From the NCBI GenBank assembly GCA_947589035.1, contig CANPYZ010000004.1:52066-116065 (forward strand): a DNA stretch of 64,000 bases, in the 5' to 3' direction. Both the position numbers and the translations under genes were made by a program. This document shows positions 41,677 to 46,116 of the stretch, in pieces (the stretch's first letter is position 1; each line of letters starts with the position of its first letter). The notes under the pieces were generated by a model that saw nothing but the letters and a program-made list of their open reading frames with translations, did no database searches and was not told the DNA's origin. The stretch comes from an uncultured Clostridia bacterium (GTDB taxonomy: Bacteria > Bacillota > Clostridia > Oscillospirales > Ruminococcaceae).

Positions 41677-41715
41677 GTGCAACACAGGACAATTGTAAAC
41701 TATGGCTGCATATGA
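41677..41715 (+). CDS. Short leader peptide overlapping the glgP start
   Basis: A 12-codon frame GTG...TGA encoding MQHRTIVNYGCI. It has an ideal AAAGGAG site seven bases upstream (41663-41669), whereas glgP's own ATG at 41702 lies over 30 bases from that site. The frame overlaps the glgP start by 14 bases. A hairpin made of GTTCTGTG and CACAGGAC (about 41672-41690) covers the leader start and the only weak AGGA near glgP. Translational coupling is likely but untested. Confidence 0.5.
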   Translation: MQHRTIVNYGCI

Positions 41716-42305
41716 TACTCTTGAAGCGAGAAACTTCAAAAAATTATTCAGTGACAGGCTAATGGCTAAGTTCAACATCTCCCCTGAAGAGGCTTCCGAC
41801 CAACAGGTTTATGAGATTCTTTCCAGTATTGTCATGGAGTTCCTCAAAGTGAAACGCCGTAAATTCATCAATCAGGTTCACTCCGCTGGCAAAAAACAGG
41901 TGTATTACCTGTCTATGGAATTTCTCATGGGTCGTTCCTTGAAAACCAGTCTGTATAATTTAGAAATTGCAGACGACATCAAGGAAATGCTTTCAGAATT
42001 TCACATCAATTTAGATAAAGTTTATGAATGTGAACCTGATGCCGGTTTAGGTAATGGCGGTTTAGGACGTTTAGCCGCTTGTTATCTTGATGGTATGGCG
42101 ACAATGGCAATGCCGGCAATGGGGCATTCCATATGTTACGAATACGGCATTTTCAAACAGAAACTTGAAGACGGCTGGCAAACTGAATTGCCGGATAACT
42201 GGCTTCCTGGGGGAAGTGTCTGGCTTGACCCCAAACCTGAACGGGCAATTGAAGTGCATTTCGAAGGCGAACTGAAAGAATACTGGGTAACTAAACAGTT
42301 ACAAT
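41702..42305 (+). CDS. glgP: Glycogen/alpha-glucan phosphorylase, 5' exon (gene interrupted by an IStron)
   Basis: The first 201 codons of glycogen phosphorylase, which releases glucose-1-phosphate from glycogen. Visible family motifs: QVYYLSMEFLMGRSLKTSLYN and the glucan/PLP-site loop DAGLGNGGLGRLAACYLDG, ending at EYWVTKQLQ where intron sequence begins and a stop (TAA) follows in the unspliced reading. The second half resumes at 44303 with HANYSTVLATPYDM, exactly where homologues continue. The gene is thus not decayed but interrupted; a splice joining 42305 to 44303 restores the frame (TAT, Tyr, at the joint). Confidence 0.92.
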
Positions 42306-42790
42306 AAATAAATAAAAATTTATTGAAACGTATACCCTTTGTATCGTGCAAACGGTGCAAACTCAACGTTAAATGCTTTTAATCCCTAAGAGCTTACGAC
42401 CGAAACAGTAGCTGGAAACGGCAAGCTGAGTAAAAATAACTACGGTGAGAAATCAGAAAAAACAGTAAGATGACCTAAGCTGAAAAAAAGCCAATCAGTG
42501 CTGATGATAGGCTATGCGTGACACATCAGAAACGTTGGTGCTAAGGGTTTTGACAATGGGTGTTTAGCAGGGAAAGCCCTAAACAGAAAATTAATTTTTC
42601 TGCATGGGAGACCTCCAACGACTATTTCCTTGAGGGAAAGTAAAGCCGCAAGCGAATGGCGGAAGAAAAATGTTGCCCTATAATTACAGAATTATAGGTG
42701 AAGATATAGTCTACGCTCATGTGAAAGCATGAGAGGTCTGCCGGTGACGGCAAGACTGCTTTGACGTTGCGAATCAAAGTGAATGAGATA
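42306..42790 (+). ncRNA. Group I self-splicing intron core (5' part of the IStron)
   Basis: The R element CCAACGACTA (42615-42624) and the S element AAGATATAGTC (42701-42711) are close to the group I consensus, and their GACTA and TAGTC form the P7 helix. P9 is CTCATG / CATGAG (42716-42733) and P9.1 is TGCCG, GTGA loop, CGGCA (42739-42752). The 3' splice site lies far away, beyond tnpB, near 44302; exon-2 bases AUAA can pair with UUAU of the left-end helix as a P10-like contact. Splice-site U is paired with A rather than the usual G in my fold, so the P1 model is provisional. Confidence 0.85.
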
Positions 42791-42827
42791 AATATATATA
42801 TTATTTTTAAAAATTTGAAAATATCTA

Positions 42828-42856
42828 TTGACAAAAGTTCATCATTATGCGATAAT
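42828..42856 (+). promoter_or_regulatory. Promoter of the IStron tnpB
   Basis: TTGACA (42828-42833), 17-base spacer ending TGC, GATAAT (42851-42856). It lies inside the intron, so tnpB can be expressed independently of glgP. Confidence 0.75.
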
Positions 42857-42886
42857 TAGAATAGCTTAAAATTTTAAAGAGGTGTA

Positions 42887-42940
42887 ATGATGAATTTGAT
42901 AGGTGAATTTGCTAAAGAGGTGACCGGCGAATGTGGATAG
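42887..42940 (+). CDS. Short leader peptide overlapping the tnpB start
   Basis: Seventeen-codon frame (MMNLIGEFAKEVTGECG) with its own AAAGAGGTG site. Its stop TAG (42938-42940) lies just inside the tnpB start (42931). It could couple or limit TnpB translation; alternatively it is a chance frame. Confidence 0.4.
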   Translation: MMNLIGEFAKEVTGECG

Positions 42941-44115
42941 CAAAGAAAGTCCGCTTAAAGCCGACACCTGAACAGGAGATTTTATTCCGGAAAAGTGCGG
43001 GAATATCCCGCTGGGCGTATAATTATTTTCTTGCGGAAAATGACCGTGTTTATCAGGAATATCTGGAAAACGGCGAAACGGGAAAAAAGTTCATTTTTGC
43101 GAGTGAGGTTCGAAAGCAAATTACTGTTTTGAAAAAAACAGAATGCAAATGGCTTGCAGAAGTTGGTTGCAATGTGACAAAACAAGCGGTAAAAGATGCA
43201 CTGGAAGCATTAAGCAAATTTTTCAAGGGTGTTTCCGGCAGACCTCGCTATAAGGCAAAACACAAGACAAAATTATCTTTTTATGTGAATTATGAAACTC
43301 TCTCCAGAAAAAATGGCGGTTTTCACGGTGAAAAGATAGGTTTTGTGAGAACTTCTGAACCGTTGCCAAAATTACCCAAAGGAACAAAATATGCTGACCC
43401 GCATATTTCTTTCGATGGAAAATATTGGTACTTATCCGTACAATATGAAATCCCTGAACAACAAGAAAAACTGACAAATGAAAGTCTCGGCATTGACTTA
43501 GGTATTAAGCATTTAGCCGTTTGTTCAAACGGGAAAACTTATGAAAATATTAACTATTCTCATGAAGTTAAACGGCTGAAAAAAGTCTTAAAACGGCAGC
43601 AACGGAAATTATCTCGAATGATGGAAGCTAATATTTCAGGCTACAAAACAGTGAACGGAAAAAGGATTCCCATTTTCATTAGACCGTTACAAGATTGCCA
43701 GAACTTTCAGAAACAGAAGAGCATCATAAAATTATTGTATAGAAGGCTGACAAACATCAGAAATAATTACCTTCACCAAACCACAACAGAGATAGTGAAA
43801 ACCAAGCCATCTCGAATTGTGATGGAAACATTGAATGTAAAGGGTATGATGAAAAACAAGCACCTTGCAAAAGCGGTTCAAGAGCAGAAATTTTATGAGT
43901 TCAAGCGTCAGATTGCTTATAAATGCCTGAAATATGGAATTTCTTTCGTTGAAGTTCCAAGGTTCTATCCGAGTTCGAAAACTTGTTCATGCTGTGGAAA
44001 AATCAAACATGATTTGAAACTTTCCGAACGAGTTTACAAATGCGAAACATGCGGACTTGTAATAGACAGAGATTTTAATGCAAGTTTAAATTTAGCAAAT
44101 TATCAATCTGTATAA
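42931..44115 (+). CDS. tnpB: RNA-guided nuclease TnpB of the IStron
   Basis: The 394-residue protein is a complete TnpB (OrfB/IS605 family): N-terminal WIAKKVRLKPTPEQEILFRK, RuvC-I Asp in SLGIDLGIKHLAV (Asp189), RuvC-II Glu in RIVMETLNVKGM (Glu299), the zinc finger CSCCGK...YKCETCG, and RuvC-III in DRDFNAS (379-385). All catalytic residues and Cys ligands are intact. TnpB proteins cut DNA next to a transposon-adjacent motif under guidance of a right-end omega RNA, which favours retention of the element. The start is ATG at 42931 after AGAGGTGA. Confidence 0.95.
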   Translation: MWIAKKVRLKPTPEQEILFRKSAGISRWAYNYFLAENDRVYQEYLENGETGKKFIFASEVRKQITVLKKTECKWLAEVGCNVTKQAVKDALEALSKFFKGVSGRPRYKAKHKTKLSFYVNYETLSRKNGGFHGEKIGFVRTSEPLPKLPKGTKYADPHISFDGKYWYLSVQYEIPEQQEKLTNESLGIDLGIKHLAVCSNGKTYENINYSHEVKRLKKVLKRQQRKLSRMMEANISGYKTVNGKRIPIFIRPLQDCQNFQKQKSIIKLLYRRLTNIRNNYLHQTTTEIVKTKPSRIVMETLNVKGMMKNKHLAKAVQEQKFYEFKRQIAYKCLKYGISFVEVPRFYPSSKTCSCCGKIKHDLKLSERVYKCETCGLVIDRDFNASLNLANYQSV

Positions 44116-44302
44116 TTCCACTTTCAAGGAAATACAGATATGTACCTATCGCTACTGGGGAATTTAAGCCTGTGGAGTGTCATATCCAACAAAAGTAGCT
44201 CCGGCAAAATTGGACATTGTGAAACAGGAAGATATTTCGTGAGGAATATCACAGTATAGATATATTCAACTTTTACAAATTTGTATATATTTATCGTAGC
44301 GG
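44060..44302 (+). ncRNA. Candidate omega RNA region at the IStron right end
   Basis: The stretch from the end of tnpB to the right boundary contains segments typical of TnpB right ends (CCTGTGGAGTGTC, GAAACAGGAAG, and the hairpin GATATT/AATATC at 44231-44250). The omega RNA scaffold would end at the element border and take its guide from glgP sequence downstream. The 3' splice site lies in the same region. Borders are not determined from sequence alone. Confidence 0.55.
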
Positions 44303-46116
44303 ATAACCAATATCATCACATTTCACACGCTAATTACAGTACAGTATTGGCTACGCCTTACGACATGTATGTTTCCGGCTATGATAGCCCCGGTGTGAGT
44401 GTTCTGCGCCTTTGGTCAGCAAAAGCCCCTAATTTCAACATGGAATTATTCAACCAGGGCGATTATGCTAAGGCTTTAGGGCAGAACTCAATGGCTAACT
44501 CCATTTCTAAAATTCTCTATCCGAATGATAATCATTTAGAAGGGAAATCTTTACGTCTGCGTCAGCAATATTTCCTTTGCGCTGCGGCAATCGGTGATAT
44601 TGTTAATACGCATATGAATGTTTACGGCACTTTAGATAATTTGCATGAAAAAGTGGCAATTCATATTAACGACACACACCCGACGTTAGCTATTCCGGAA
44701 TTGATGCGCATTCTTTTAGATGACTGCGGTTATGGCTGGGAACAGGCTTGGCACATTGTGACAAACACATTCGCTTACACGAATCACACTGTCATGGCAG
44801 AAGCCCTTGAAAAATGGGATGTCAACATGATGAACAGAATCATTCCGAGAATTTTCTCAATCATCGTGGAAATCAATAACCGCTATTGTCAGTCCTTAAT
44901 GGAACGCAACGGCTACGACAGCGCAAAAACTACCCGTATGTCCATTATTAAAGACAATACTATTCATATGGCAACGCTTTGTGTGGTTGCTTCCCACAGT
45001 GTCAATGGCGTTTCGAAATTGCATTCCGAAATTATTAAAACTGATGTCTTCAAAGATGAAGCTGCCGACACACCGCACAAATTTAAAAATGTCACTAACG
45101 GCATTGCTTACCGCCGTTGGCTTTACCAGTCCAACCCTGGTTTAACACAACTGCTGAAAGATACTATCGGCAATGGCTTTTTGAAAGATGCTGCACAGCT
45201 TTCTAAATTCGCCGTGTTCGCTGATGATGATACTGTTCTCGAACGCCTGATTCAGGTCAAAAAGGAAAATAAAGAACGTTTCGCTAAATATGTGAAACAT
45301 TCTTCCAAAGTCATTCTGAATACAGACAGTATTTTTGACGTTCAGGTGAAACGCCTTCATGAATACAAACGTCAGCATTTGAACGTACTGAACATTCTCG
45401 CTCAGTATAATTACCTTCTGGAAAATCCTAACGCCGATTTCACGCCGAAAACTTACATTTTCGCCGCAAAGGCTGCCCCGGGGTATTACCTCGCTAAACA
45501 AATCATTAAAATGATTTGGGCAATTTCAGAAGAAATCCGCAAAAATCCACGCATTTCCGAAAAATTAGCCGTGCATTTCATTGAAGATTACCGTGTGACC
45601 CTTTCGGAATTGTTAATGCCCGCAAGCGAAATTTCAGAACAAATTTCCCTCGCCGGCACGGAAGCTTCCGGCACAGGTAACATGAAACTGATGCTGAACG
45701 GTGCAATTACTCTCGGTACGCTGGACGGCGCAAACGTCGAAATTAAAGACGCTGTCGGTGACGACAACATTATTATTTTCGGTATGAAAACGCCTGAAGT
45801 GAATGCAGCAAAATTAGACTACAACCCCGAAAAACTGTATAATGAAAATTATACCATCCGTGACTGCATTAACCGCATGTATCACGGCATTAACGGCTGT
45901 ACGTTCAATGAAGTTGCCGATTCTCTCAAGAAAAGTGACCCGTATATGGTTCTCGCTGATTTTGATTCTTACCATGAAGCACAGAATTTCAGCACAGAAT
46001 GTTATAATGACAAGATGCGCTGGGCGAAAATGTCCTTAATGAATATTGCCGGTGCTGGCATTTTCTCCGCTGACAGAAGCGTTTCTGATTATGCCCGTGA
46101 TATTTGGGGACTGTAA
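44303..46116 (+). CDS. glgP: Glycogen/alpha-glucan phosphorylase, 3' exon
   Basis: The remaining roughly 604 codons contain the rest of the phosphorylase: YSTVLATPYDMYVSGYDS, VAIHINDTHPTLAIPELMR, NTFAYTNHTVMAEALEKW, the FDVQVKRLHEYKRQHLN segment, and the PLP-binding Lys in EASGTGNMKLMLNGAITLGT. No internal stop or frameshift was seen. It has no own ribosome-binding site, consistent with a spliced exon rather than an independent gene. After splicing the full enzyme would have about 805 residues, normal for the family. Confidence 0.92.

Follow-up and report, generated by a model that had tools for sequence, protein, structure and literature searches.

How can a glycogen phosphorylase gene (glgP) carry a long insert that holds a transposon gene, with the second half of its reading frame undamaged? 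The question is raised by a 64,000-nucleotide stretch of DNA from an uncultured Clostridia bacterium of the Ruminococcaceae (assembly GCA_947589035.1, contig CANPYZ010000004.1, positions 52,066 to 116,065, forward strand), referred to here as the window and numbered from its first letter. An earlier note on this DNA had proposed that glgP is split by an IStron, that is, a group I intron combined with a tnpB gene, and this was borne out by the open reading frames (ORFs), by the Phosphorylase profile PF00343 and by Rfam and Pfam matches. We believe, with a probability of roughly 0.86, that the insert is a group B IStron, containing an intron, tnpB and a RAGATH-18 guide-RNA scaffold, and that it would be spliced out at 42287/44303 to give a full-length phosphorylase.

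The ends of the element could be fixed by a second copy in the same genome (L002), 91% identical to that of the window. The alignment of the two begins three bases ahead of the common TGGGTAACTAAACAG and runs through CGTAGCGG to one base further, an A that is a chance identity of both right flanks; positions 42288-42305 are common to both copies as element sequence. The ends of other relatives agree with this. The left end is TGGG/TAAC in all 14 loci of a first set (13 by pattern, L063 by eye), the later left ends (L224-L229 and L231) all follow TGGG except that of L229 (AGGG), and CGG closes 17 of the 18 right ends listed, the exception being a second scaffold in L055 (CGA). From L002 and these ends it follows that the element occupies 42288-44302, after a TGGG target at 42284-42287 and with its CGG end at 44300-44302. 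Thus exon 1 ends at 42287, and glgP does not run through codon 201 as had been thought, since the last six of those codons belong to the intron. Another placement, a TTAC target with an element at 42303-44308 guessed from homologue codons, is ruled out by the second copy.

The two halves of the gene were called as ORFs 41702-42307 and 44281-46116, which cover positions 2-102 and 105-712 of PF00343. Joined at 42287/44303 they read ...KEYW-DNQYHHISH..., with no gap against 17 intron-less homologues; this protein comparison rests on the 17 of 29 homologues read in the right frame (outside it are L026, L038, L039, L041-L045, L047 and L049-L051). The joint at 42305/44303 given in the earlier note is also in frame but adds six residues to what the homologues have, and both this and the second copy refute it. 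At the DNA level, TGGG followed by the start of exon 2 was found in 26 of the 29 same-genus alleles, the pattern not being found in L042, L043 and L050. Comparison with such intron-less alleles had been suggested as a check, and it confirmed the insertion while moving the joint. The 29 orthologue loci come from other genomes of the genus (a genus scan gave a phosphorylase match in 36 of 38 genomes, the source genome counted) and are open frames with no stops; the insertion is in none of those returned and, among the loci seen, only in the source genome. As already proposed, the second half of the split gene is undamaged, exon 2 having no stop and no frameshift over 603 codons.

A conserved group I ribozyme fold is present at the 5' side of the element. 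The Rfam search that had been suggested as a second check matched RF00028 at 42485-42733 (E 3e-7), at 36.8 bits and so below the gathering score of 50; three of the 12 relatives scanned reach that score (50.5-51.5 bits). All three belong to an alignment of 13 introns over 638 columns, from the window, its genome, a same-genus genome, Selenomonas, Acetobacterium, Clostridium tarantellae, Lysinibacillus (five) and two metagenome-assembled genomes (MAGs). RNAalifold drew 112 pairs on it, 53 of them with at least one two-sided change. When the P7 to P9.1 structure was set by hand on 10 introns, 96.6% of the cells paired, compared to 44-50% when the strands were slid, and two-sided changes were seen in 14 pairs, a number that shuffling reached in 0 of 500 trials (mean 8.3); further pair types showed no excess, 415 of the 500 trials being as high. 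The elements R and S and the P7 and P9.1 pairings read earlier are indeed there, all 35 hand-set pairs form in the window intron, and the P7 pair GACTA/TAGTC is invariant in 10 of 10 introns. The P7.1, P7.2 and extended P9 hairpins were recovered, and P9.2 is followed by GAATGA. By resemblance to the description in PMC4227781, the intron can be labelled class IA2. P1 would be formed by exon GGG/U paired with TACCC (42333-42337); RNAalifold drew neither P1 nor P7, and at the start of the intron it placed a hairpin of GTAAC with GTTAC. It can also be observed that translation of an unspliced glgP message would end at the TAA at 42305, ahead of the ribozyme core (window 42288-42307). This fits a published proposal in which early stop codons prevent ribosomes from entering the intron (PMC4227781).

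The transposon part of the element follows the ribozyme (Table 1). As stated in the earlier note, tnpB is intact, and its product matches the Pfam families TNB, OrfB_IS605 and HTH. The best match in the Protein Data Bank (PDB) is the TnpB of ISFba1 (8IAZ, E 7e-71), alignment to that chain confirmed the acidic RuvC motifs, and the protein is predicted to be an RNA-guided nuclease. Overlooked so far was the RAGATH-18 scaffold 3' of tnpB, also present in 11 of 12 relatives scanned; RNAs derived from this family guide IS607 TnpB nucleases (PMC11061315). The guide of the window element is predicted to be the start of exon 2 and its target-adjacent motif to end in TGGG, a motif taken from the insertion site only. 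Of the 29 same-genus alleles, 26 retain this predicted target next to TGGG, at 2-5 mismatches. The tnpA gene is reduced to a remnant that resembles, by eye, the N-terminus of the intact TnpA of a relative (L231), which has MerR and resolvase domains, as expected of an IS607 TnpA. Just downstream of the ribozyme core is a promoter-like site that none of 200 shuffles equalled; it is equal in L002 and weaker in L231.

Table 1. Features of the split glgP gene and its IStron (window positions)
Feature	Position	Strand	Remarks
glgP exon 1	41702..42287	+	195 codons and the first base of a split Asp codon; ends ...TAC TGG G
IStron (group B, IS607 type)	42288..44302	+	2015 nt; start TAACTAAACAGTTAC, end CGTAGCGG; from L002 break points and ends of relatives
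Group I intron ribozyme part (P1 to P9.2)	42288..42789	+	Rfam match, 13-intron alignment, fold
TACCCT, predicted internal guide sequence	42333..42338	+	invariant in 13/13 introns
P7 5' strand GACTA (element R)	42620..42624	+	set by hand
P7 3' strand TAGTC (element S)	42707..42711	+	set by hand
AU-rich inverted repeat, 5' arm, flanking the insertion sequence (IS) part	42787..42811	+	25 nt, 76% complementary to 44271-44295
Promoter-like site TTGACA-17-GATAAT with TG	42828..42856	+	predicted tnpB/guide-RNA promoter
tnpA remnant	42887..42940	+	17 codons, MMNLIGEFAKEVTGECG, then stop
tnpB	42931..44115	+	394 aa; RuvC motifs GIDLG (D189), METLN (E299), DRDFN (D379)
RAGATH-18 guide-RNA scaffold	44169..44230	+	Rfam, 62.4 bits, E 5.3e-10, gathering 44.9
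AU-rich inverted repeat, 3' arm	44271..44295	+	pairs with 42787-42811
glgP exon 2	44303..46116	+	ORF, PF00343 match, homologue alignment
Predicted TnpB guide	44303..44322	+	first 20 nt of glgP exon 2; predicted from IS607 TnpB biology

The insertion sites of intron-bearing relatives were compared in 16 copies with both ends known, the window copy included. All of them lie in sense within an open frame that is phase-matched on both sides, 15 by script and one (L227) by reading; the script had called the latter antisense by length, but it sits in sense directly after a likely start codon, ahead of a DUF1294 domain. Control TGGG sites on both strands of the same flanks gave 173 sense, 86 antisense and 31 neither out of 290 (P 0.003 for the 15 of 16 classed by script). 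The host genes supported by Pfam are diverse: a GH9 cellulase with dockerin (L002), in which the profile runs to 364 and then from 368 across the insert, in phase; luxS in a Lysinibacillus (L226, genome G820), split by a 1379-nt IStron beside the CQTGF start (profile 79 then 81); a Y-family polymerase (L062), an amidohydrolase (L064), a lactone oxidase (L065), a lipoate ligase (L130), an aminotransferase (L224) and toxN (L057). Although the right half of the last opens with an ATG, its match to the ToxN profile begins only at position 44, which puts the site inside the gene. Five of the 16 (L022 and L224-L227) are short copies of 449-1379 nt that keep the ribozyme and have no room for a full tnpB and the intron. 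L022, from a same-genus genome (G006), is a 449-nt stand-alone intron without tnpB or RAGATH-18, and the ORF in which it is inserted in phase had no Pfam match. Outside the count are L058, L072, L228 and L229 (right end missing or at a contig end), L060/L232 (left end cut) and L230 (ends undefined). Their single flanks gave sense frames of 209, 976 and 354 codons in L072, L228 and L229 (best antisense 37, 22 and 35), and in L060/L232 frames of 796 codons in sense and 718 in antisense. Backed by this pattern of insertion, we infer that glgP is kept alive despite the element.

Introns of this type are rare, a model of the intron having matches in 10 of 391 genomes at 1e-8 in a class scan and in 2 of 398 at 1e-15 in a phylum scan (the source genome is in both); scan matches below 100 bits (e.g., 7 in G668 and 4 in G226) were not counted as evidence. 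Only two such introns were found in the source genome. Viral contigs contained 30 TnpB relatives, the closest at 67% and 62% over parts only, and four of them had a weaker intron match (44-94 bits). Close IStron/TnpB relatives were seen in contigs labelled as Prevotella and Desulfovibrionaceae MAGs (L058 and L061), either by transfer or by misbinning.

A tree of TnpB proteins (35 of the 80 TnpB loci plus three) provides a natural comparison. One clade (98/100) includes all 14 TnpBs with a strong intron, four with a cut flank and three without intron, each of these nested on its own; outside it fall three TnpBs whose intron matches are weak, and the position of L068, misframed with 28 stops, carries no meaning. 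Within this clade, the two-ended copies with a ribozyme are intragenic and in sense, and the two core-less copies that could be placed are found where the damage is slight. L054 is in no ORF, and L066, on reading, interrupts a 192-codon frame six codons before its stop, the right-hand ORF being separate and with its own ATG. For the intron-less L056 the left end was not found. Small as these numbers are, the placement of ribozyme-bearing versus core-less copies fits selection for splicing.

Several observations weigh against the explanation proposed here or qualify it. Precise insertion by itself would give an in-frame joint, which is no proof of splicing. The RF00028 scores of the window intron and of the other nine of the 12 relatives stay under gathering, and the P1 and P7 pairs never vary and thus give no covariation support. 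Synonymous divergence (dS) between glgP and its relatives is saturated, which makes dN/dS (its nonsynonymous counterpart over dS) uninformative on timing, so that it does not reveal whether purifying selection acted after the insertion. An uninterrupted second phosphorylase, with 42% identity to the split one, is encoded in the same genome; it could mask the loss of the latter, and it softens the description of glgP as a core gene in the earlier note. TGGG is commoner on coding strands, as the control sites indicate, so the evidence from orientation is modest. The single left flank of L058 has no sense frame of more than 10 codons and an antisense one of 111, and the core-less L066 is classed by script as sense (35+170 codons). 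With one query, the intact TnpA of L231, no intact match was obtained in the source genome, which is 96% complete, and the element may therefore be immobile now. Finally, most other copies scanned lack the promoter-like site or have one that shuffled sequence equals.

The intact second phosphorylase, the intron score below gathering and the lack of the insertion in all 29 same-genus orthologue loci, by which it may be young, could also indicate that we are looking at a group B IStron by descent whose present copy splices poorly, with glgP a pseudogene covered by its paralogue. This we consider unlikely, given that exon 2 has remained open over its whole length, that every hand-set pair of the P7-P9.1 structure forms and that L002 is also in phase, within a GH9 gene. 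A host role is still harder to defend. If TnpB and its guide RNA had been domesticated to regulate glgP, with the intron as a by-product, a guide made of glgP's own sequence and a tnpA left only as a remnant would make sense, but the nuclease motifs are present, the second copy is in an unrelated gene and the insertion is missing from the 29 same-genus orthologue loci; we give this very little weight. Least credible of all is the type assigned originally, an IStron of the IS200/IS605 (CdISt1-like, group A) kind with its joint at 42305/44303. The OrfB_IS605 match of TnpB and the open frame across that joint speak for it, and the comparison of boundaries refutes it: 42288-42305 is element sequence in L002, the joint leaves six residues too many, the ends are TGGG and CGG instead of a T-rich target and TCAG, and the one relative examined with an intact TnpA carries MerR and resolvase domains. 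The U as first intron base and the AU-rich repeats are group B features as well.

Under the splicing IStron that we prefer, the intron would remove the element from the glgP message at 42287/44303 and full-length phosphorylase would still be made from the spliced message. TnpB would use glgP exon 2 as guide and TGGG as target-adjacent motif and would cut empty glgP copies, repair then keeping or copying the element, and the internal promoter past the ribozyme core would give tnpB and guide transcripts incapable of splicing. Splicing would at the same time part the scaffold from its guide. A conflict between intron and guide RNA is reportedly known from an IS607-type IStron of Clostridium botulinum (Zedaveinyte, 2024). 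One might go further and imagine a single locus with two mutually exclusive RNAs, a spliced one from the glgP promoter and another from the internal promoter. The intron would act as an RNA-programmed homing element, and the ribozyme would have been repeatedly lost in the TnpB clade. The conservation of TGGG and the site in 26 of 29 alleles can be cited in favor of this scheme, and for plasmids it has been reported that TnpB cuts empty sites and drives the copying of its own IS (PMC11870625). Since the promoter is strong only in the window and L002 and weaker in L231, a second, unspliceable transcript can be proposed for this lineage only. We regard the two-RNA homing scheme as tentative and rather doubtful. 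At this locus, whose host gene would itself supply the guide, the trade-off between splicing and guide RNA is open to testing.

The source genome (G000) has 31 other RAGATH-18 loci besides the two IStrons (e.g., L182:150-221, L159 and L164-L169). These intron-less scaffolds mostly end in CAGTAACGG, CAATAACGG or GAGTAGCAGG, and at 22 of the 31 the ATG of an ORF of at least 60 aa follows within 60 nt (19 within 16 nt; counts without control). The few left ends that were read are purine-rich. Taken with the published AGGAG motif, this suggests insertion of the intron-less elements at Shine-Dalgarno sites. Some (L156, L157, L169 and L173) look like units of ca. 430 nt with RAGATH-18 and no room for tnpB, possibly non-autonomous guide-RNA elements.

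The type of the window element is best seen against the known systems. Group B IStrons are described as inserting at targets that end in GG and as having CGG at the 3' end, ORFs of the IS607 type and long inverted repeats rich in AU, which form a stem of 15-34 bp round the ORF region, and one of them, BcISt1, splices in vivo, as detected by reverse-transcription PCR, after a G and with U as the first intron base (PMC4227781). The ends, the repeats, the first intron base and the TnpA of L231 support the inclusion of the window element among them. Like BcISt1 and SrISt1, it is inserted after a GG-ending site such as TGGG and ends in CGG; the U is common to both, the homologues placing it outside an exon that ends in G; and P7.1 and P7.2, an extended P9, the AU-rich repeats, an IS607-type ORF B and a degenerate ORF A are likewise held in common (PMC4227781). 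The GAATGA after P9.2 is in the same place as the motifs listed in PMC4227781 and close to them, but is none of them. Apparent differences from that account are the host clade, the glgP target (the word "glycogen" is nowhere in its main text) and the guide RNA, of which it seems to make no mention; glgP is also unnamed in the titles or abstract openings of the IStron literature surveyed. With CdISt1 (group A) the window element has the IStron architecture in common, but CdISt1 is of IS200/IS605 type, with a T-rich pentanucleotide target and a 3' TCAG, in contrast to TGGG and CGG here. ISFba1 has the same RNA family, a scaffold 3' of tnpB and the closest TnpB structure, although its target motifs are AGGAG or GAGGG in place of the TGGG predicted here; the terms "IStron" and "group I intron" are absent from the main text of that work (PMC11061315). 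Group B IStrons, their in vivo splicing and RAGATH-18-guided IS607 TnpB were thus known already, and what is added is one member in glgP, a conserved metabolic gene: an IS607-type IStron with well-defined ends, its joint corrected to the base, in a genome with 31 intron-less RAGATH-18 loci, most of them shortly before a start codon.

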